Shown: one piece after another, positions 33,788-43,362 of the stretch | Layout: every line of letters starts with the position of its first letter | How positions within the stretch are numbered: position 1 is the first letter of the stretch | Source: Agrococcus sp. ProA11 | Lineage (GTDB): Bacteria; Actinomycetota; Actinomycetes; Actinomycetales; Microbacteriaceae | NCBI RefSeq assembly: GCF_039880525.1 | Contig: NZ_CP156989.1 | Coordinates: 2,418,001 to 2,482,000, forward strand | Direction of reading: 5' to 3' | DNA: 64,000 nt | Notes under the pieces: model-generated | Seen by the model: only the letters and a program-made list of their open reading frames with translations | The model's database searches: none | What the model was told of the DNA's origin: nothing | Program-made: the position numbers and the translations under genes

Positions 33788-33847
33788 CGCGCGTGTCAGG
33801 TTGTTGCTGAGTTCGGGCCGCGACAGTGCAACAACCTGACACGCGCG
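33788..33847. repeat. Long inverted repeat, copy 1
   Basis: Perfect 20-bp arms CGCGCGTGTCAGGTTGTTGC (33788-33807) and its complement (33828-33847) around a 20-nt loop. A near copy lies at 38403-38456. It sits in the convergent gap between the SDR gene and the five-gene PIG-L operon. It is stable enough to act as a bidirectional terminator, but the sequence is shared with the second copy, which argues for a repeat family. Confidence 0.85.
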
Positions 33848-33910: not shown

Positions 33911-34051
33911 TCAGCCGACGATCAGCGTCCGGACGATGACGAAGGCGGAGACGATGGCCGCGGCGATGGCGGCCTGCACCAGCAGGTGGCGCTCGACCCG
34001 CTTGTCGCGCTCGATCTCCTGCTGCTCCGCCTCGAAGTCGAGCCCGCTCAT
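33911..34051 (-). CDS. 46-aa single-TM small protein coupled to the GT2 gene
   Basis: Starts MSGLDFEAEQQEIERDKRVE, then a hydrophobic segment AAIAAAIVSAFVIVRTLIV up to the C-terminus. ATG overlaps the stop of the glycosyltransferase gene (ATGA, 34048-34051), a strong sign that it is translated. Small membrane partners of processive GT2 enzymes are known (for example PgaD/IcaD with PgaC/IcaA); this could be an analogue, though no sequence likeness is claimed. Last gene of the five-gene operon. Confidence 0.68.
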   Translation of the reverse strand: MSGLDFEAEQQEIERDKRVERHLLVQAAIAAAIVSAFVIVRTLIVG

Positions 34052-35547
34052 GCCATCACCCGTCCTGTCTTCTCGGTCTTGTCCCAGACCATCGCAGCCC
34101 CCTGCGCCTCCTTGACGTAGGAGTCGAAGGTGATGGCGACGAGGATCGGCCCGTAGCCGAGCAGGTAGACGGTCATGGCCATCAGCCACTCTGGTGCGTT
34201 CGCCTCGTCGAGCTTCTTCACTCCCCAGGCGCCCAGGATGCACAGCGAGATCCACGCATAGATCGCGATGTACCAGATGTCGATGCCGGTCTCGGTCATC
34301 CGCAGGCCGAACAGCGAGGGCACCAGCTCGGTGAACAAGCCGGGGAAGAACGCTGAGAGCACGACGATCGTGAACAGCACACCGGGGAAGAGCACGACCT
34401 CGCGCCACGCGGTGCGCGTGATGCCGGGGTCGAGCATCGCGGCGAGCGTGATCGTGTAGATGCTGGCCGCGCCGACGACGATCCACATGGATCGGAAGAT
34501 GAACTCCGAGATCGGCGACTCCATCACGTAGAGCGAGATCAGCCCGATGGACGCCATGATCATGAACACCGGCAGCAGGTAGATGCCGAACCAGGCGAGC
34601 CCGAAGAAGATCGAGCCCAGCCGGTGCTCGCTCGAGGGCCGGAACCAGATGTCGCGGTAGCGCTTGGTGATCTGCACGTTGCCGCGCGCCCAGCGCAGCC
34701 GCTGCTTCCAGAGCGCGCCGACCCGCTGCGGCTCCTCGGCCAGCACCACCGCGAGCGGCTCGAACACGACGCGCTTGCCGGAAAGCTGGGTCTCGAAGGT
34801 CGTCACCGTGTCCTCGGCGAGCGAGCTCGTGTCGATCGCGCCGCCGAGATCCTCGATGTTGCGCCGCGTGTGCAGCTGCGCGCCGCCCGCCAGGCAAGTG
34901 ATGGCGCCGCCCACGTTCTGCGCGCGGCGGCTGCCGAGCTGGCCGAGGACGTACTCGAAGGAGACGAAGCGGCTGAGGTAGTTCTTGTCGGCGCTGCCCT
35001 CGCGGATGTAGGCGGTCACGGCGCCCACCTCGGGGTCGGCGAGGTGGCGCGTCATCTTGCGCAGCGAGTCCGGCAGGTAGATGACGTCGGCGTCCATGAT
35101 GAGGAGCGCCTCCATCCAGTCGTCGGCCATGACGTGGCGGATGCCGTGGTTGAGGGTGTGCGACTTGCCCTCGCCCCCGACCTCCCGGCGCAGGTGGAAG
35201 ACGGCACCCGGGTACTGCAGCGCCTTCGCCTGCACGACCTGGGGGGTGTCGTCGGTGGAGGCGTCGTCGACGACGTAGATGCGCAGGCGCCCGTCGGGAT
35301 ACTCGAGCCGCATGAGTCGGTCGATCGACTCGGCCAGCACGGCCCCTTCGTTCCAGGCGGGCACGATCACGGCGACGCGCGGGCTCGTCGGTGCGCTGCG
35401 CTTGAGGTGGTTGACGAATCCGTGCACGGGCACCAGCAGGAACTGGCTCGCCATCACGAACGCGGGCACCGCGCCGATGAGCACCATGGCGACGAGCACC
35501 ACCACGAGCACCGTTTCACCGATGTTCAGCCACTCCGCACCGGTCAT
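34048..35547 (-). CDS. Processive family 2 glycosyltransferase, membrane-bound
   Basis: 499 aa. N-terminal TM at about 12-38, GT-A domain with VIVPAWNEGAVLAESID, VVDDASTDDTP, DADVIYLPD (DxD), SLAEDTVTTFETQL (ED), and QRLRWARGN (QxxRW), followed by four or more TM segments in the C-terminal third. The DD/DxD/ED/QxxRW set defines cellulose/chitin/hyaluronan/PNAG synthase-like enzymes that polymerise and extrude a glycan. ATG overlaps the PHP gene stop by 4 nt. The product is unknown; a beta-linked amino-sugar polymer would fit the PIG-L deacetylase upstream. Confidence 0.9.
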   Translation of the reverse strand: MTGAEWLNIGETVLVVVLVAMVLIGAVPAFVMASQFLLVPVHGFVNHLKRSAPTSPRVAVIVPAWNEGAVLAESIDRLMRLEYPDGRLRIYVVDDASTDDTPQVVQAKALQYPGAVFHLRREVGGEGKSHTLNHGIRHVMADDWMEALLIMDADVIYLPDSLRKMTRHLADPEVGAVTAYIREGSADKNYLSRFVSFEYVLGQLGSRRAQNVGGAITCLAGGAQLHTRRNIEDLGGAIDTSSLAEDTVTTFETQLSGKRVVFEPLAVVLAEEPQRVGALWKQRLRWARGNVQITKRYRDIWFRPSSEHRLGSIFFGLAWFGIYLLPVFMIMASIGLISLYVMESPISEFIFRSMWIVVGAASIYTITLAAMLDPGITRTAWREVVLFPGVLFTIVVLSAFFPGLFTELVPSLFGLRMTETGIDIWYIAIYAWISLCILGAWGVKKLDEANAPEWLMAMTVYLLGYGPILVAITFDSYVKEAQGAAMVWDKTEKTGRVMA

Positions 35548-36266
35548 GCTGCTTCCTCCAGGATCGCGGCGACCCGCTCGTAGCGCCCGATGTCGTCGGC
35601 CGTGTGGCTGTCGGTGGATGCGACGAGGGCTGCGCCTGCGGTCCGTGCGGCGCGCACGGCGCGCGGGCTCGGGCATCCCCACTTCTCGTTGACCTCGATG
35701 CGGGTGCCGGTGCGCGCGGCCGCCTCGGCCCATGCGCGCAGCAGCTCGTCGTCGATGTCGCGCTCGTCGAGCCCGATCTTCGGCAGGATCGAGAACGGAT
35801 GCGCGAGCTGCGCGCCGCCTCCGGCGCGCTCCATGGCGGCGATGGTGGCACCGACCAGCGTGGCGACCGCATCGGCGGCGCTCAGGCCGTCGGCGAGTGC
35901 GGCAGCGGTGCGCGACGGGCTCCACGGCCCGTCCGGACCCGGGAACTGGTGGTCGGCGATCACGATGCCGTCGATGCCGCCGGGCCCGACGACCAGGTCG
36001 GCCGGGATGTCGAGGGTGCCCGACGCATCGAGGATCTTCGCCTCGACGCCGGTACGGACGGTCAGCGTGGGCGGCACGTCGAGCGCGCGCACGGCGGCGA
36101 GGAACTCCGGCACCCAGGTGGTGTCGACGCGCACGTGGTCGATCAGGCGGATCTCCCGCAGGCCGCGCGCGACGGCCGCGGCGACGTTCTCGGCGAGCGT
36201 GCTCTCGGCGTCGTCGGAGAAGGTCGAGTGGATGTGCCAGTCGCCGGCGAGCTCCGGGTGCGTCAT
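35544..36266 (-). CDS. PHP-domain metal-dependent hydrolase
   Basis: 240 aa. Seen: GDWHIHSTFSDDAESTLAENVAAAVARGLREIRLIDHV, VRTGVEAKILD, IVIADHQFPG, GGGAQLAHPFSILPKI, RIEVNEKWGCPSPRAV, and LVASTDSHTADDIGRYE. These match the metal-binding motifs of the PHP fold (histidinol phosphatase and phosphoesterase relatives). It is a stand-alone PHP protein, so phosphatase or phosphodiesterase activity is likely. It overlaps both neighbours by 4 nt, so its job belongs with the ATP-grasp and GT2 enzymes. Confidence 0.86.
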   Translation of the reverse strand: MTHPELAGDWHIHSTFSDDAESTLAENVAAAVARGLREIRLIDHVRVDTTWVPEFLAAVRALDVPPTLTVRTGVEAKILDASGTLDIPADLVVGPGGIDGIVIADHQFPGPDGPWSPSRTAAALADGLSAADAVATLVGATIAAMERAGGGAQLAHPFSILPKIGLDERDIDDELLRAWAEAAARTGTRIEVNEKWGCPSPRAVRAARTAGAALVASTDSHTADDIGRYERVAAILEEAA

Positions 36267-37237
36267 CGCACGGCCTCGGTCCCGGCCAGGATCTCGCTGG
36301 TCGCGACGAACACGTCCTCCAGGTAGCGGACGTTCGCGATCTCTGCGAACGGCACGCGCTCTGGTACCGGGCGGCCGAGCGCGAGGTCGATGGCGAGCGA
36401 CGGCATGTCGACACCAGCTGCGATCGTCAGGGGCATCGAGCCGGGGAAGCGCGGGTTGATCTCGAGCAGCGCCGGCTCGCCGGTGGTGGCGTAGCGCAGC
36501 TGCACGTTGCAGACGCCGACGATCCCGGCGGCCGCGGCGCAGGCCTCGGCCGTGCGCTCCAGCTCGTCGCGGTGCACGGTGCGGCCGGCGATCGCGATCC
36601 CGGAGTCGACGCGCGCGCGCAGGCGCGGCACGGCGGCGATCGCGGTGCCGTCGGCGCCCATGAGCACGTCGACCGAGAACTCCTCGCCGGGCAGGTTCTC
36701 CTGGATGATCCAGGCGTCATCGCGCGGCTCCGCCTCGAGTGCGGCGCGGTCGTCGACCAGGTGCACCCCGCGCGAGCCGGCGCCGCTGCGCGGCTTCACG
36801 ATCACCGGGAAGGTCCAGTCGACGGCCACGCCCGCGTCGTCGAGCACCGCGGTCTGCGGCACGCGCGCGTGCGGGGCGCACGCCTGCACGAGCAGCCACT
36901 TGTCGAGGCAGGTGCGCAGCGCGGCCTCGGACGGCGCCGCCAGCACGGCCCCGAGCGCATCCCGCTCGGCGCTCAGCGGCACGAGCTCGACGTCGACGGT
37001 CGAGACGACCACGTCGATCCCATCGACGGCGACGAGCGCGCTGACAGCATCCACGAATCCGGGGGCCTTGCCCGGCGGCACGATGCGCCGATGCTCGGCG
37101 TCGACCAGGTAGAGGCCGCTCGCCCAGCCGTCCATGTCGGCGGCGAAGACCTCCAGGTCACCGCGCTGCAACAGGGAGCGGATGACGGCGACGCCGGCTG
37201 CTCCGCCCGCTCCGGTTACGAGCACTCGGGTCGTCAT
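36263..37237 (-). CDS. ATP-grasp ligase (CarB/PylC-like)
   Basis: 324 aa. Pre-ATP-grasp Rossmann-like domain: MTTRVLVTGAGGAAGVAVIRSLL, followed by AADMDGWASGLYLVDAEHRRIVPPGKAPGFVDAV. ATP-grasp core: CLDKWLLVQACA, TFPVIVKPRSGAGSRGVHLV, QENLPGEEFSVDVL, ALLEINPRFPGSMPLTIAAG with metal-binding E and N. Such enzymes join a carboxylate to an amine through an acyl phosphate. The substrate is unknown. Start at 37237 overlaps the receiver-deacetylase stop by 4 nt and leaves its stop overlapping the PHP start. Confidence 0.88.
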   Translation of the reverse strand: MTTRVLVTGAGGAAGVAVIRSLLQRGDLEVFAADMDGWASGLYLVDAEHRRIVPPGKAPGFVDAVSALVAVDGIDVVVSTVDVELVPLSAERDALGAVLAAPSEAALRTCLDKWLLVQACAPHARVPQTAVLDDAGVAVDWTFPVIVKPRSGAGSRGVHLVDDRAALEAEPRDDAWIIQENLPGEEFSVDVLMGADGTAIAAVPRLRARVDSGIAIAGRTVHRDELERTAEACAAAAGIVGVCNVQLRYATTGEPALLEINPRFPGSMPLTIAAGVDMPSLAIDLALGRPVPERVPFAEIANVRYLEDVFVATSEILAGTEAVR

Positions 37238-38319
37238 GGTCGTTCTCCACTGGTCGTCTCGAATGCGCCGCCGAGCTGGTCGCGGCCGCGGTGTGCGTGC
37301 TCCGACGCAGCCTCGATACCGCGCGCATCGCGGATCATCTCGAGCGGCTCGACGTGCGTGCCGGTGCCGAAGCGCGACCAATAGCGTGCGGTTGCCCGCA
37401 CCAGGTCGGGTGCGAGGTAGTTGCGGATGCCGCTCTGCGACGCGAAGCTCTCCAGCAGCCGGAGCTTCGCATCGACGTAGCCGTCGATCGAGACGAAGCG
37501 GGTCGGCGCGAACCCGATGGTCGCGGATGGGCTCTGGTAGCAGCCGACCTGGGCCACGTTGCGCGTCGCGACCATGGCGGCTTCGTGCACGGCGCGGTGA
37601 TCCTGGTGCCGGTCGTTGCGGGAGTGCACGTAGACCGTCGTCGGCAGCACTTCGGCGACCACACGCTCGATGATGCCGACGGTCGGGTCGGAGTTCGAGA
37701 TGGCGGTGTCGGTCAGATCCTTCAGGAACAGTCGCGCGCCCAGCAGCTCGGCTGCCGCGAGCGACTCGTGCTGCCGGTCGTCGGCGCTGCCGCCGCGCGC
37801 CCCGCGGGAGAGCGTGAGGATCGTGATCGGGTCGCCCGCCGCCGCGTGTGCGGCCAGTGTGCCGCCGACGCCGATCTCGACGTCATCCGGGTGCGCGCCG
37901 ATGGCCAGCACCGATCGCGCGACGCGCGCTGCCCGCTTGCGCCGGGCCGCGAGGCCGAGGCGTTCGACCGCGGCGATCAGGTCGGCCGATGACAGCGGCT
38001 TCTGCAGGAATTCGTCGGCGCCGGCGCGCAGGGCGGTCACCGCATACGTGACCGAGCCGTGCGCGGTCATCAGGATGATGGGCAAGTGCGGGTCGAGGTC
38101 GCGAGCGGTGGTGATCAGGTCGAGGCCGCTGCCGCCGGGCATCTCGATGTCGGTGACGACCACATCGGGCGCGAACTCGCGCATCTCCTCGACGAAGCCG
38201 ACGACGCTCGGCATCCGTCGCACCTCGCAGCCGAGCCGTCGCTCGAGCACGGTCACCACGAGCATGGCGACGTCGTCGTCGTCCTCCAGGACGAGGACGC
38301 GGAGCGGGGGAGACGTCAT
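37234..38319 (-). CDS. Response-regulator receiver fused to PIG-L deacetylase
   Basis: 361 aa from MTSPPLRVLVLEDDDD. Residues 6-120 are a CheY-like receiver: acidic pocket at 12-15, phospho-acceptor Asp57 (VVVTDIEMPGGSG), Thr85, and Lys107 in LQKPL. Residues 135-345 are a PIG-L/LmbE domain: AIGAHPDDVEIGVGG (142-152) and the zinc motif RHQDHRAVHEA (His238/His241). There is no DNA-binding output domain, so phosphorylation would act directly on a zinc N-deacetylase. First gene of the operon. No kinase is encoded in the window. ATG at 38319 has no clear ribosome site; a palindrome sits right before it. Confidence 0.9.
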   Translation of the reverse strand: MTSPPLRVLVLEDDDDVAMLVVTVLERRLGCEVRRMPSVVGFVEEMREFAPDVVVTDIEMPGGSGLDLITTARDLDPHLPIILMTAHGSVTYAVTALRAGADEFLQKPLSSADLIAAVERLGLAARRKRAARVARSVLAIGAHPDDVEIGVGGTLAAHAAAGDPITILTLSRGARGGSADDRQHESLAAAELLGARLFLKDLTDTAISNSDPTVGIIERVVAEVLPTTVYVHSRNDRHQDHRAVHEAAMVATRNVAQVGCYQSPSATIGFAPTRFVSIDGYVDAKLRLLESFASQSGIRNYLAPDLVRATARYWSRFGTGTHVEPLEMIRDARGIEAASEHAHRGRDQLGGAFETTSGERP

Positions 38320-38402: not shown

Positions 38403-38456
38403 GCGTGTCAACTTGTTGCAGTTCTGCGGCGCAGGGACAGCAACAACCTGACACGC
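38403..38456. repeat. Long inverted repeat, copy 2
   Basis: GCGTGTCAACTTGTTGC (38403-38419) and GCAACAACCTGACACGC (38440-38456), 15 of 17 positions paired, 20-nt loop. It is a near copy of the repeat at 33788-33847, with loops of equal length and a shared AGTTC. It lies between the oleD stop and the five-gene operon start. Confidence 0.82.
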
Positions 38457-38493: not shown

Positions 38494-39459
38494 CTAGGCG
38501 TAGTGGGCGGCGAGGCGGCGCAGGCCCTCGTCGATCGTGACCGTCGGCGCCCAGTCGAGCGCGGCGCGCGTCTCGCGCTGGTCGAACCAGTGCGCGGTCG
38601 AGAGCTGCTCGGCGAGGAAGCGCGTCATGGGCGGCTCGTCGCTGCCCGGGCGGATCGCCCAGACGCGCTCGACGGCCGAGCCGGCCGCGCGCGCGAGACC
38701 GGCGGGGATGCTGCGGCGCGGCACCGGCACGCCTGCGGCCAGGCAGATGCCCGCGAGGATGTCGGCGACCGGCCGGGGCTCGCCGTTGGTGACGACGTAG
38801 GCCTTGCCGTGGGCGGCATCCGCTCGGTGCAGTGCGGCGACGATCGCGCTGGCCGCGTTGTCGACGTAGGTGGTGTCGATGAGTGCGCGTCCGCCGCTCA
38901 GCAGCGGCACGCGGCCGCGCCGGGCGCGCTCCACGACGCGCTCGATGAGCTGCGTGTCGCCCGGACCCCAGACGATGTGCGGGCGCACGGCCAGCACGTG
39001 CATGGTCTCGGTGTCGCGCTCGAGCGCGAGCAGCTCGGCGGCGGCCTTGGTGCGGGCGTAGTCGCCGCGCGCGTGCTCGGGCGATGCGGGCTCGGCGCCC
39101 ACGCCCGCGAGCGACGAGCCGGTGTGCGCGACCGAGGGCGAGGAGACCTGCACGAAGCGCGCGACGCCCGCACGCTCGGCGGCATCCAGCAGCGTGCGCG
39201 TGCCCTCGACGTTCACGCGGCGGAAGTCGTCGGGGTCGCCCGCGAGCGACACCTTCGCCGCGAGGTGCACGACGCCCTCGACGCCCTCCATGGCGAGCGC
39301 CACGTGCGTCGGGTCGGCGACCGAGCCCAGCACATCCGTCGCGCCTGGCACGCTCGAGGGGCGCCGCTGCAGCGTGCGCACCTCGTGGCCGGCGTCGACG
39401 AGCGCCGCCGCGACGGCGCGGCCGAGGAAGCCGGAGGCGCCGGTTGCGAGCACCCTCAC
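38494..39459 (-). CDS. oleD: OleD-like NAD(P)-dependent 3-hydroxy/2-alkyl ketoacid reductase
   Basis: 321 aa extended SDR. Seen: VLATGASGFLGRAVAAAL, VVHLAAKVSLAGDPDDFRRVNVEGTRTLLDAA, VQVSSPSVAH, YARTK (catalytic Tyr and Lys), VRPHIVWGPGDTQLIERVVERA, and DTTYVDNAASAIVAALH. OleD reduces the 2-alkyl-3-ketoacyl product of OleA to the 2-alkyl-3-hydroxy acid. Identity rests on the neighbouring oleA and oleBC genes. 31 nt after oleBC on the same strand. Confidence 0.88.
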   Translation of the reverse strand: MRVLATGASGFLGRAVAAALVDAGHEVRTLQRRPSSVPGATDVLGSVADPTHVALAMEGVEGVVHLAAKVSLAGDPDDFRRVNVEGTRTLLDAAERAGVARFVQVSSPSVAHTGSSLAGVGAEPASPEHARGDYARTKAAAELLALERDTETMHVLAVRPHIVWGPGDTQLIERVVERARRGRVPLLSGGRALIDTTYVDNAASAIVAALHRADAAHGKAYVVTNGEPRPVADILAGICLAAGVPVPRRSIPAGLARAAGSAVERVWAIRPGSDEPPMTRFLAEQLSTAHWFDQRETRAALDWAPTVTIDEGLRRLAAHYA

Positions 39460-39490
39460 CGGCGGCTCCCGGTGCTGCTCGAGCGCGTGA

Positions 39491-42343
39491 TCACGGCTTG
39501 CCCGCCCGCTCGCCGGCGAGCATCCGCTCGGCCCACTCGGAGAGGCGCGACCGGTCGATCTTGGAGTTGTGGCGGATGTCGGTGGGCAGCTGCGGCACGA
39601 CGAGCACCGCCGCGAGCGGCGCCCGCGAGCGCTCGCGTGCGGCGGCGGTCAGCTGCGGGTCGGCGAGCCCGGGGCGCGCCTGCGGGCGAGAGCCGTCGGC
39701 GGCGGGCTCGATCACCGCGACCGCCTGCCGCAGCCCGTGCGGGCCGATGCCGACGACCGCCGCCCGGCGCACGCCGTCGACCACCTCGAGATCCTGCTCG
39801 GGGCCGACGGGCGCGACCGGGCCGTCGGCGGTGACGATCACGTGCTGGATGCGGCCCTCGACCCAGAGGCGGCCGTGCTCGTCGAGGTGGCCGATGTCGC
39901 CGGTGCGGTGCCAGCGGGCGGTGGGGGCGGTCTGGTCTCGTGACGCGCGCGCCTGCGGCGCACGCTCCTCGACCGGCGAGAGTGACTCCGTGTCGCGCGT
40001 TGCGGCGCGGTCGGTGAGGTAGAGGCGGTCGTAGCGCTGCTTGAGGTGCGGGGCCGAGATGATGACCTCGCCGAGCACGCCGGGGGTCGCGCTCGGCTCC
40101 CCCGTCGCGCGGCCGTCCGCGTCAAGAGCGCTGACGAGCACGCGGTTGGCGCCGATCGGCGTGCCGACGCAGACACCGGCATCCGGAGCCTCGGCCGCCG
40201 CGCGCACGCCGTCGAGCGTGATGTCGGCGACCAGCAGGCACTCGGTCATGCCGTAGGGGGTGTGCGGGGTGGCGTTGGGCATCAGCTCGGCGACGGCGGT
40301 GAGCATGGCCGCGCTGATCGGCGCGCCGGTGGAGAGGAAGGTGCGCACGCGCTCGAGTGCGCGGCGGTCGTCGGCGGTGAGCGCATCCGCCGTCTCGACC
40401 ACGTTGAGGATCGCGGCGGGCGAGAGGAAGACAATGCCCGCCACCGACGCGCGCACCGCATCGGCGACCGCTCTGGCGGTGAGCGTGCGCGGCGCGGAGA
40501 CATCCATGTCGGGTGTGGCCGAGCGGGTGCCGAGCGCCGGGCCGAGGAGCGCGAACGGCGCGAAGCCGGTGACGAGCCCGATCTCGGGCGAGATGTCGAG
40601 GTGGGCGGCGAGCACGTCGCGCAGGGCGCTCAGCTGCCCGTGGCGGTAGACGACGCCCTTCGCGGGACCGGTGGAGCCGGAGGTGAAGAGGATCGCGGCC
40701 TCGTCGTCGGGGCCGGGCTGCTCGGGGTCGGGCTGCTCGGAGTCGGGGACGCCACGCCCCAGCTCGGCGACATCGGCGAGGCTGCGCGAGACGCCGAGCG
40801 CCGCGGCTGCGACGCGCGGCAGCCGTTCGGCGGAGATGCGGGTTCCCGGCCAGCCGAGCGCGCGGGCGGCGGTGAGGCCGAGGCGCTCGCCGATGACGAC
40901 GTCGGGCCAGGAGCCGCGCACGGCGCGAGTGAGGCCGCGGATGCCGAGGCCTGCGTCGGCGACCACCACGACGGCGCCGATGCGGAGGCAGGCGTAGAGG
41001 ACGGCGGTGAGCGTCGGACCGGGCTGCAGGAGGAGCGAGACGCGGTCGCCCTTGCGGATGCCCGTGGCGTGCAGGCCGGCGGCGAGCTCGCGCACGCGGG
41101 TGTCGAGCTGCCGCCAACTGACGCGGCGCTGGCCGCCGCCGCGCGCGGCCATGTCGATGACGGCGACGGCGGCGTCGCCGGCGCGCTGGTCGAGGCCGTG
41201 CCAGAGGGGGGTGAAGGGGGCTCTGGTCTCGTGACGCGCGTCGGCTTCGCCGATGCCCTCCTCGACCGACGGGGTGAGGGCGGGGTGGGCGGCTTGGTCT
41301 CGTGACGCCGCCTTCGGCGGCTCCTCGACCGGCGAGGTGGGCGAGTGGGCGAGCCAGTCGAGGACGGCGGGGGCGTAGGGGCGGTCCTCGGCGATGAGGT
41401 GGCTGGCGCCCTCGAAGCGGTGCACGTCGGCGTGCGGCATCCGGTCGATGAGGTCATCCAGGTAGCGGTCGCCGAAGACCGGGTCACTCGGCCCCCACAG
41501 CAGCAGCGCGGGCACGGTCAGCGCGGCGACACCGGCGTTGATGCGCTTGAGCTCGGCGAAGCTCTCGTGCTGCGCGTCGACGGGGATGTCGGCGACGAAG
41601 CCGCCGATGCCCTGGCGCCGCGATGCGGAGCCGTACGGCGCGCGGAACGCGGCCTGCACCTCGGGCTCGAGCGACGGCGACGCGAGCGCCAGCGTGGTGT
41701 CGAGGAAGCCGCTGGTCGCGACCGTCGCCGCGCTCAGCACCCCGCGAGCGCCCGCGAGTCGCAGCGGTGCCGGGATCGGGGTGCCCTCCGGGTGGTGCAC
41801 GGCGGTGTTCAGCAGCGCGACGCCCGCGAGCGACTCCGGATGGTCGATCGCCCAGCCGAGCGAGATGACGCCGCCCCAGTCGTGCCCGAGCGTGACGACC
41901 GGGCCGTGGAGATCCAGCGCATCCGTGAACGCCGACAGGTCGGCGACGCGCTGCGCGAGCGTGCGGTGCCGACGGGCGCCGACGGCGAGCTTCGTGCGCT
42001 CAGAGAAGCCCATCTCGAGCTGGTCGACCGCGACCACGCGCCAGGCGGTCTCCCCCGCGGCCGCGCGCCGCAGCGACTCGGCGGCGATGCGGCGCCACAG
42101 GTATGACCAGGTGGGGTTGCCGTGCACGGCCAGGATCGTGCCGGCCGCCTCCACGCCGAGCTGCGCCAGCGCATCCGCAGTGTCGAGGCAGTGCCACTCG
42201 CGCGTGCGTTCCGCGTCGAGGCCGCGCCCGGGCACCTGGACGAGGCGGCTCCACGCCGGGTCGAGACCGGGCAGGTCGCTCGGCGGCAGCGACGCAGCGG
42301 CGCCGGCGGGCGCCGCCGCAGACGGCGAGGCCAGCGCTGTCAC
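39491..42343 (-). CDS. oleBC: OleBC fusion: beta-lactone decarboxylase plus beta-lactone synthetase
   Basis: 950 aa. Residues about 25-335 are an alpha/beta hydrolase of the haloalkane dehalogenase type: HGNPTWSYLWR, nucleophile Asp155 in GHDWGG, acid in LLWGPSDPVFGD, His in GASHLIAED. Residues about 377-950 are an AMP-forming ligase: LFTSGSTGPAKGVVYRHGQ, TPYGMTECLL, WHRTGDIGHLDEHGRLWVEGR. OleC closes the beta-hydroxy acid to a beta-lactone and OleB decarboxylates it to the cis-olefin. Such fusions are known in actinobacteria. GTG at 42343 overlaps the oleA stop. Three palindromic repeats are translated within it (residues about 338-349, 359-372 and 790-803). Confidence 0.9.
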   Translation of the reverse strand: MTALASPSAAAPAGAAASLPPSDLPGLDPAWSRLVQVPGRGLDAERTREWHCLDTADALAQLGVEAAGTILAVHGNPTWSYLWRRIAAESLRRAAAGETAWRVVAVDQLEMGFSERTKLAVGARRHRTLAQRVADLSAFTDALDLHGPVVTLGHDWGGVISLGWAIDHPESLAGVALLNTAVHHPEGTPIPAPLRLAGARGVLSAATVATSGFLDTTLALASPSLEPEVQAAFRAPYGSASRRQGIGGFVADIPVDAQHESFAELKRINAGVAALTVPALLLWGPSDPVFGDRYLDDLIDRMPHADVHRFEGASHLIAEDRPYAPAVLDWLAHSPTSPVEEPPKAASRDQAAHPALTPSVEEGIGEADARHETRAPFTPLWHGLDQRAGDAAVAVIDMAARGGGQRRVSWRQLDTRVRELAAGLHATGIRKGDRVSLLLQPGPTLTAVLYACLRIGAVVVVADAGLGIRGLTRAVRGSWPDVVIGERLGLTAARALGWPGTRISAERLPRVAAAALGVSRSLADVAELGRGVPDSEQPDPEQPGPDDEAAILFTSGSTGPAKGVVYRHGQLSALRDVLAAHLDISPEIGLVTGFAPFALLGPALGTRSATPDMDVSAPRTLTARAVADAVRASVAGIVFLSPAAILNVVETADALTADDRRALERVRTFLSTGAPISAAMLTAVAELMPNATPHTPYGMTECLLVADITLDGVRAAAEAPDAGVCVGTPIGANRVLVSALDADGRATGEPSATPGVLGEVIISAPHLKQRYDRLYLTDRAATRDTESLSPVEERAPQARASRDQTAPTARWHRTGDIGHLDEHGRLWVEGRIQHVIVTADGPVAPVGPEQDLEVVDGVRRAAVVGIGPHGLRQAVAVIEPAADGSRPQARPGLADPQLTAAARERSRAPLAAVLVVPQLPTDIRHNSKIDRSRLSEWAERMLAGERAGKP
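39934..39974. repeat. Palindromic repeat copy inside oleBC (ligase domain)
   Basis: 41-bp member with GGTCTCGTGACG and CTCCTCGACC ends, centre CGCGCGCCTGCGGCGCACG. In the gene it is read as SPVEERAPQARASRDQ and lies just before the WHRTGD motif of the AMP ligase, where family members have a short surface loop. Confidence 0.82.
41225..41266. repeat. Palindromic repeat copy inside oleBC (linker, second)
   Basis: 42-bp member, centre CGCGTCGGC-TTC-GCCGATGC. Read in the gene as PSVEEGIGEADARHETRA, in the linker between the hydrolase and ligase domains. Confidence 0.82.
41296..41330. repeat. Palindromic repeat copy inside oleBC (linker, first)
   Basis: 35-bp member, centre GCCGCC-TTC-GGCGGC. Read in the gene as SPVEEPPKAASRDQ. 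With the second linker copy it makes up most of the joint between the OleB and OleC domains. Confidence 0.82.
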
Positions 42344-43362
42344 CAGGCGAGCTCCATCATGGCGGTGTTGAGCCCGGAGCCGACGCCCATGAGCAGCACG
42401 CGGTCGCCCTTCTTGAGCCGCTCCTGCTCCTCCACGAGCGTGATCGGGATCGACGCGGGGCCGACGTTGCCGAAGCGCGGGAAGGTCGTCGGCACGCGGG
42501 CGGGATCGAGGCCGGCCGCCTTCACGATCGCGTTGGTGTGCACGGAGGAGACCTGATGGGTGATGTAGCGATCCATGGAGGACCAGTTCCACTCCGGCGC
42601 CGATTCCTTCCACGCCGAGACCACGAGGTCGAGGCCGCCCTTCAGCAGCGCCTTCGCGTTCGTGTACATGCCCTCGGCGCTGCCGACGCACAGGTCGTGC
42701 CACTGGGTGGCGGCGCGCGTGACGCCGCCCAGGATCCGGTGGCCGTCGGGGTGCAGGTCGGTGCGGCCGAGCACGGCGGCGGCCGAGCCGGAGCCGAGCG
42801 TGAGGGTGGCGAACTCGCTCAGGAAGTCGGAGCGGTCGATGTCGCTGCCGAGCAGGCGGTCGATCGTGTTGACCTGGATGTCGTCGGCGTCCTCACCGTT
42901 GACGACGATCGCGTAGTCGATCTGGCCCGACTCGATCATGCCCCCGGCGAGGCTCATGCCGTTGACGAAGCCGAGGCAGGCGTTCGCGACGTCGAAGTTG
43001 ATGGCGCTGGTCGGCAGGCCGAGCTCGTGGTGGAGGCGCACGGCGACCGAGGGCTCGAGGTGCTTGCGCGTGACCGAGGTGTTGATGAGCAGGCCCACCT
43101 CCGAGGCGTCGACGCCGGCCTCGGCGAGCGCGCGCCTGCCCGCCTCCACGGTGGCGTCGTCGGCGGATTCGCCGTCGGCCCAATTGCGGCGCTCGTCGAC
43201 GCCCGCGACGCGGCGCAGCAGGCCACTCTTGAGCCGCAGGCGCGAGAGTGCGTCGCCCAGTCGCTCCTCGATGTCGATCGAGGTCGTCACCCTGCTCGGC
43301 AGCGTGCTCGCGACCGACAGCAGCGAGACGTTCTCGAACCGCGTGGTCGCGTTGCCAGCCAC
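42340..43362 (-). CDS. oleA: OleA-like thiolase-fold 3-ketoacyl synthase
   Basis: 340 aa, ketoacyl-ACP synthase III-like. Cys129 in FDVANACLGFVNGM is the nucleophile, followed by SMDRYITHQVSSVHTNAIVK (His) and RFGNVGPASIPITL (Asn). The N-terminus VSLLSVASTLPSRVTTSIDIEERLGD matches OleA rather than FabH. OleA condenses two fatty acyl-CoAs head to head. GTG start with GGAGG about 5 nt upstream. First gene of the ole operon; its stop overlaps the oleBC GTG. Confidence 0.9.
   Translation of the reverse strand: MAGNATTRFENVSLLSVASTLPSRVTTSIDIEERLGDALSRLRLKSGLLRRVAGVDERRNWADGESADDATVEAGRRALAEAGVDASEVGLLINTSVTRKHLEPSVAVRLHHELGLPTSAINFDVANACLGFVNGMSLAGGMIESGQIDYAIVVNGEDADDIQVNTIDRLLGSDIDRSDFLSEFATLTLGSGSAAAVLGRTDLHPDGHRILGGVTRAATQWHDLCVGSAEGMYTNAKALLKGGLDLVVSAWKESAPEWNWSSMDRYITHQVSSVHTNAIVKAAGLDPARVPTTFPRFGNVGPASIPITLVEEQERLKKGDRVLLMGVGSGLNTAMMELAW

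Follow-up and report, generated by a model that had tools for sequence, protein, structure and literature searches.

A receiver–PIG-L de-N-acetylase fusion heads a coupled five-gene operon in Agrococcus that may encode a synthase-type amino-sugar polymer pathway

The window analyzed, a stretch of 64,000 nucleotides from Agrococcus sp. ProA11 (contig NZ_CP156989.1, positions 2,418,001 to 2,482,000), carries on its minus strand five genes at positions 33911–38319. The first encodes a response-regulator receiver fused to a PIG-L de-N-acetylase, and it is followed by genes for an ATP-grasp ligase, a PHP-domain metallohydrolase, a membrane glycosyltransferase of family 2 (GT2) and a small transmembrane (TM) protein. 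A first-pass annotation made from the sequence alone had described five coupled genes; all its coordinates were verified, as were the ATGA overlaps at the four junctions (37234–37237, 36263–36266, 35544–35547 and 34048–34051). The gene set is rare and patchy, and its co-occurrence is beyond chance because gene order and overlaps are conserved in relatives and because the sets of genomes matching the PHP and the GT2 proteins are identical. The five genes probably form one pathway. The complete model, a synthase-type amino-sugar polymer locus in which the PIG-L enzyme is gated by phosphorylation, the ATP-grasp enzyme re-acylates the product and the PHP protein is a phosphatase, is held with evenly balanced confidence.

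The neighbourhood tally covered 63 loci (the window, L035–L050 and L055–L100), or 60 after the removal of three second copies of the same genome. Loci L055–L134 were the best 80 matches listed, ranked by their likeness to the receiver–PIG-L protein of the window; the distant loci L051–L054 and L101–L134 were read and left outside the tally. ATP-grasp, PHP and GT2 genes were all present near the PIG-L gene in 38 of the 60 loci. Among these complete loci, 33 had a receiver scoring at least 60 bits and 30 a detectable small TM gene. Nine loci included ATP-grasp and GT2 without PHP, five ATP-grasp without GT2 (two of these, L082 and L095, lie close to a contig end), and eight neither of the two. 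Both ATP-grasp and GT2 were kept in 47 of the 60 loci, and GT2 without ATP-grasp was seen in none of them. The first-pass annotation had proposed such a search and had tied its reading to the genes occurring together elsewhere, and the five genes were indeed found together in other genomes. In two Leifsonia loci, L055 and L093, the operon is without the GT2 gene, and each genome has a GT2 on another contig, 56–57% identical to that of the window. Both Leifsonia operons (L055:11039–12033 and L093:11019–11956) retain the small TM gene.

Also the coupling of the genes is conserved. Counting stop-start overlaps of 1–8 bases with a simple gene caller and with duplicates kept, overlaps were found between PIG-L and ATP-grasp in 37 of 54 cases, ATP-grasp and PHP in 35 of 41, PHP and GT2 in 32 of 38, and GT2 and the TM gene in 29 of 35. 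Where a second receiver and a kinase follow, the overlaps were as frequent as 13 of 14 (TM gene to second receiver) and 13 of 15 (second receiver to kinase).

In a sample of 297 genomes of the order, the receiver–PIG-L query (E 1e-20) matched 30 genomes; 16 of the matches span both domains, one begins at residue 68 and 13 are confined to the PIG-L part. The searches with PHP and GT2 matched an identical set of 14 genomes, which all belong to the 30 and have their PIG-L match no more than about 3 kb away. The naive probability of such identical sets is about 3e-24, a value that overstates the case because the genomes are related. Among the 16 genomes with a two-domain match, four (G060, G220, G223 and G292) had no PHP and GT2 matches. 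In a sample of 396 genomes of the phylum, GT2 was matched in three, the two-domain protein was found in the same three, a few kilobases away, and two further genomes matched the PIG-L part only. The one other Agrococcus genome in the order sample did not show the set at the thresholds used, which points to a rare and patchy distribution.

The fusion protein (361 amino acids; 37234–38319, minus strand) consists of a receiver (PF00072, about residues 8–119) and a PIG-L de-N-acetylase (PF02585, 81.2 bits, about residues 137–330). The longest frame of the gene has a GTG start at 38454 and would encode 406 amino acids; the ATG at 38319 agrees with the ends of the homologues. The first-pass annotation had seen a receiver with all its phosphorylation residues and a zinc PIG-L enzyme without a DNA-binding domain, and both descriptions were borne out: D13/D14, D57, T85 and K107 are in place, the catalytic and zinc residues H143, D145, D146, H238 and H241 are present, and Pfam found no DNA-binding domain in the protein. 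In an alignment of 35 proteins H143, D145, D146 and H241 were invariant and the strict five-residue phospho-site set was kept in 27, so the lack of phospho-acceptor conservation among homologues that the annotation had named as fatal to its idea was not observed.

The AlphaFold2 model of the fusion was of high quality (predicted local distance difference test, pLDDT, 91.5; predicted template modelling score, pTM, 0.78). In the model, receiver helix 5 is prolonged into a long helix (residues 111–131), and the PIG-L domain begins its first strand at 137, which makes the helix a plausible coupling element between the two domains. In Foldseek the PIG-L half matched BshB, TT1542 and diacetylchitobiose deacetylases, its fold being closest to amino-sugar deacetylases, and the receiver half matched CheY-like receivers. 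A quick maximum-likelihood tree was constructed of 94 PIG-L domains, omitting five related loci as near-copies and three as duplicates. A branch with a Shimodaira–Hasegawa-like approximate likelihood ratio (SH-aLRT) of 99.8 sets apart 56 receiver-linked sequences, row L051 having been assigned to the receiver group by eye. Judged from this tree, the receiver-linked PIG-Ls form one clade across Actinomycetota, Pseudomonadota and Myxococcota.

In relatives a histidine kinase, which the phosphorelay supposed in the first-pass annotation would need, lies inside the same coupled operon, often together with a stand-alone receiver. These kinases have HisKA and HATPase domains; PAS was matched in each of the four scanned (one match being weak), and several TM segments were predicted in three checked. 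A kinase scoring at least 150 bits was found within 9 kb in 30 of the 38 complete loci. The eight complete loci without one were the window, L035 (covered for only 236 bases upstream), L048, L050, L097, L099, L085 and L089. Of these, L048, L050, L097 and L099 form one branch of the tree; the receiver residues are degenerate in L097 and L099, and Pfam matched no receiver in L050 or in L049, which comes from the same genome as L097. A search of the window's genome for the partner kinase returned nine kinases and no clear orthologue. The closest over its full length (locus L144, 270 bits) lies opposite a further GT2 gene and a receiver gene and is no obvious partner. This locus (C1:484500–492500), where the kinase gene is convergent with GT2, membrane-protein and receiver genes, is possibly a second two-component–GT2 locus of the genome.

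Protein 4 (499 amino acids; 34048–35547, minus strand) is a GT2 membrane glycosyltransferase, putatively of the polymerising type, by Pfam (PF13641), NCBIfam and hydropathy. The DxD, ED and QxxRW motifs noted earlier were recovered as MDAD, AED and QRLRW, and by hydropathy the catalytic domain is preceded by one TM segment and followed by about five. The best NCBIfam match was PgaC_IcaA, with 119.8 bits against a cut-off of 422.3; identity to Escherichia coli PgaC was 26% across the glycosyltransferase domain, and the HpnI, HpnB, MftF and NodC models were matched as well. Motifs, hydropathy and partner genes are compatible with polymerisation and export by a membrane GT2. In five scanned proteobacterial loci (L081, L084, L088, L091 and L096) there is also a tetratricopeptide-repeat (TPR) protein, which matches the PgaA and BcsC models weakly, via its TPR part. 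The PgaC-like GT2 scores, all of them below the curated cut-off, and the TPR proteins speak for a synthase-type glycan pathway, in keeping with the surface glycan or glycoconjugate supposed in the first-pass annotation. One locus of the receiver–PIG-L family, L074 (11987–15008), contains a tandem pair of GT2 genes.

The last gene of the operon (33911–34051, minus strand) encodes a protein of 46 amino acids with one hydrophobic segment, preceded by D16 and E20, which are conserved in an alignment with 18 counterparts; no Pfam or NCBIfam family matched it. One of the counterparts is the C-terminal tail of the Legionella rowbothamii GT2, to which the small TM segment is fused.

Protein 2 (324 amino acids; 36263–37237, minus strand) is an ATP-grasp ligase of PRK12767/ATPgrasp_Ter-like type by Pfam (PF15632/PF02655) and NCBIfam, with the ATPgrasp_Ter domain at 108.4 bits and 2pn1 as the nearest solved relative by sequence. 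Protein 3 (240 amino acids; 35544–36266, minus strand) is a PHP-domain metallohydrolase (PF02811) and a putative phosphatase. None of the nine proteobacterial loci had a PHP gene, and in six of them (L088, L090, L091, L094, L095 and L096) a histidine-phosphatase gene adjoins the ATP-grasp gene; those of L091 and L088 were confirmed by family models and the other four rest on an RHG motif found by script. The distant actinobacterial relative L113 has a HAD enzyme and a UDP-N-acetylglucosamine (UDP-GlcNAc) 2-epimerase. The histidine phosphatases in the place of PHP, together with the HAD enzyme and epimerase of L113, favour a phosphatase step, as the first-pass annotation had supposed for PHP, in a pathway that is probably UDP-GlcNAc-linked. 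In L113 (11060–13066) and L101 (4334–6514), an exosortase/archaeosortase-like domain (TIGR04178, 28.4 and 34.3 bits, respectively, cut-off 23) is fused to ATP-grasp, in Actinoplanes and Geodermatophilus clusters that also contain PIG-L and a PgaC-like GT2; the UDP-GlcNAc 2-epimerase and HAD genes were recognised by Pfam in L113 and by eye in L101.

In the proposed mechanism, the operon would build an amino-sugar polymer of the cell surface and adjust its chemistry, the GT2 and its small TM partner polymerising and exporting a glycan from a cytosolic nucleotide sugar. Once phosphorylated by a histidine kinase, the soluble receiver–PIG-L protein would de-N-acetylate an amino-sugar precursor, either cytosolic or membrane-linked. 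The amine set free would then receive an acyl or aminoacyl group from the ATP-grasp enzyme, and the PHP protein would take off a phosphate in the precursor pathway. We infer the substrate, the direction of the switch, the ATP-grasp reaction, the identity of the polymer and which kinase acts in the window's genome. More tentative, and held at somewhat below an even chance, is the wider idea that the output of a two-component system is here sugar chemistry itself, the phosphorylated receiver switching a de-N-acetylase that sets the charge and acylation of the polymer during synthesis, in a family common to three phyla. If true, a phosphorelay would act directly on the enzyme setting the chemistry of the product, bypassing gene regulation. 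The comparison defines a small gene set (kinase, receiver–PIG-L, ATP-grasp, phosphatase, GT2 and TM partner) and natural variants of it, in which the phosphatase is swapped, the switch residues are lost or the synthase has moved elsewhere.

The GT2 might instead transfer a single sugar, or no more than a few, to a lipid or small molecule. In that case PIG-L, ATP-grasp and PHP would serve to make a modified glycolipid or small glycoside, on the pattern of bacillithiol BshB or of the HpnI/MftF pathways. The closeness of the PIG-L to BshB, its matches to glycopeptide deacetylases, which like BshB act on small molecules, and the HpnI, HpnB and MftF matches of the GT2 would fit this, but the best GT2 match is PgaC/IcaA and the QRLRW motif is present, the TPR partners fit polymer export (their barrel domain being putative), and the L. 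rowbothamii synthase carries the TM segment as a fusion; a small product is judged rather unlikely. The polymer-locus model has several results weighing against it. The GT2 is far under every curated cut-off, and its processivity and sugar are putative. The small TM protein had been compared to those of the PNAG (poly-N-acetylglucosamine) type synthases, a likeness that was not supported at the sequence level: hhalign of 19 small TM sequences against E. coli PgaD gave a probability of 0.3%, the sequences being so short that a distant tie is possible. Of the proteins of the variant loci, C17 and C18 had no Pfam or NCBIfam match in the members scanned and C19 had none either. L081 and L084 showed no histidine phosphatase, the script finding no RHG motif there or in L082 (cut off); this absence is weak evidence because the pattern also missed L088. 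Further such points concern the completeness of the loci and the state of the receiver, and they bear on two other explanations.

Among 11 genomes with the fusion, chosen mostly for an incomplete-looking locus, six gave no GT2 match (E 1e-20) and no ATP-grasp match (E 1e-10); four of these are metagenome assemblies, which may be incomplete, and two are 99% complete. The deacetylase may therefore work without GT2 and ATP-grasp, or these loci are remnants. The six corresponding loci (L041, L042, L068, L073, L075 and L079) do have a nearby kinase, as would be expected if receiver–PIG-L and kinase were a separate signalling module deacetylating a general metabolite, with the glycan genes as frequent but unnecessary partners. 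Against this stand the joint retention of ATP-grasp and GT2 in the large majority of the tallied loci and the constant company of ATP-grasp wherever GT2 occurs. Moreover, of the eight loci with neither gene, L087 is cut inside the ATP-grasp gene and the genome of L086 carries both elsewhere, and L068, L073 and L075 branch separately in the tree, L068 and L073 being substituted at several otherwise conserved PIG-L positions. Such a module is considered the most improbable of the explanations. Hardly more probable is a receiver that serves as a fixed dimerisation or docking part without a phospho-switch, at least in the window's genome. The window locus lacks a kinase gene, 8 of the 35 aligned proteins depart from the strict rule at one or more phospho-site residues, and degenerate receivers occur in four alphaproteobacterial sequences (one of which retains D57, Ser and Lys), in L. 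rowbothamii and in one actinobacterial branch. On the other side, the window protein, like the other strict receivers, keeps all five residues, and most complete loci have a kinase nearby. A kinase within 6 kb, any kinase-model match being accepted (the weakest at 44 bits), accompanied 24 of the 27 strict-receiver proteins vs. 1 of the 8 others (Fisher p-value 1.3e-4), an association that is suggestive at most because it comprises one or two independent contrasts, with which a phylogeny-aware test shows nothing.

Compared with known systems, the operon resembles the PNAG type (PgaABCD, IcaADBC) in having a de-N-acetylase, a small TM partner and a membrane GT2 that carries polymerase motifs; a TPR protein is a further common feature in the five proteobacterial loci scanned for it. 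It differs in that its deacetylase is a PIG-L without TM segments instead of the secreted PgaB/IcaB, in the added ATP-grasp and PHP, in a small TM protein that is not detectably PgaD-like, and in a GT2 that fails the PgaC/IcaA model. No PgaB/IcaB deacetylase was found by Pfam among the five operon proteins, the rest of the genome not having been searched for it. Nor are C17 and C18 of the variant loci detectably PgaB-like: hhalign gave no support for them as PgaB-like hydrolases, a comparison with the PDB gave no match of weight, and an AlphaFold2 model of C18 built with two sequences (pLDDT 46.6) was not used. In L046 and L077 the receiver–PIG-L gene is convergent with a variant-type C17–GT2–ATP-grasp unit, a possible link between the variants. 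PNAG-type systems are under cyclic di-GMP control, and the control known for synthase-type polysaccharides in general acts mainly via cyclic di-GMP or transcription, whereas this operon has a receiver. With PIG-L/LmbE enzymes (BshB, diacetylchitobiose deacetylase, Dbv21/Orf2) the protein shares the fold, the AHPDD motif and the zinc-site residues, and differs from them in its fusion to a receiver and in the single clade of such members. CheB and PleD are response regulators with enzymatic output, likewise combining a receiver with an enzyme without a DNA-binding domain, and both appear in Foldseek via the receiver; the output of the operon protein is, in contrast, a putative sugar de-N-acetylase. 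The logic resembles that of NodC–NodB–NodA, where a deacetylase exposes an amine on the amino-sugar chain built by a GT2, for acylation by a further enzyme. The operon GT2 is matched by the NodC model, whereas the deacetylase and acylation enzymes are of different families. An anti-phage defence system was rejected as PADLOC gave only local matches of at most 20 bits.

A full-text literature search, with coverage outside most subscription journals and preprints, returned no description of receiver–PIG-L proteins or of the gene set, judging by titles and the beginnings of abstracts. The clusters that passages of PMC13390465 describe are of other kinds. Enzyme-output response regulators and synthase-type glycan loci are both known, and their union via a de-N-acetylase appears to be new.

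The operon is flanked by copies of a 50-bp palindromic element, neither assigned to a strand. One, at 38405–38454, is a possible terminator between the operon and the upstream ole-type genes; the other, at 33793–33842, lies downstream between convergent genes and is a possible bidirectional terminator (z-score −7.85 as RNA). Their presence on both sides suggests that the operon is transcribed apart from the upstream olefin genes. The element consists of 15-base arms and a 20-base middle and is intergenic in its own genome, often at convergent gene ends. The genome has 13 full copies by pattern and two one-arm sites, and four pairs of copies are spaced about 1–5 kb apart, flanking one to five genes. 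The upstream genes at 38494–43362 are likely olefin-biosynthesis genes by their Pfam domains, and we take them to be an OleD-like NAD-dependent epimerase, an OleB–OleC-like fusion of alpha/beta hydrolase and AMP ligase, and an OleA-like ketosynthase.

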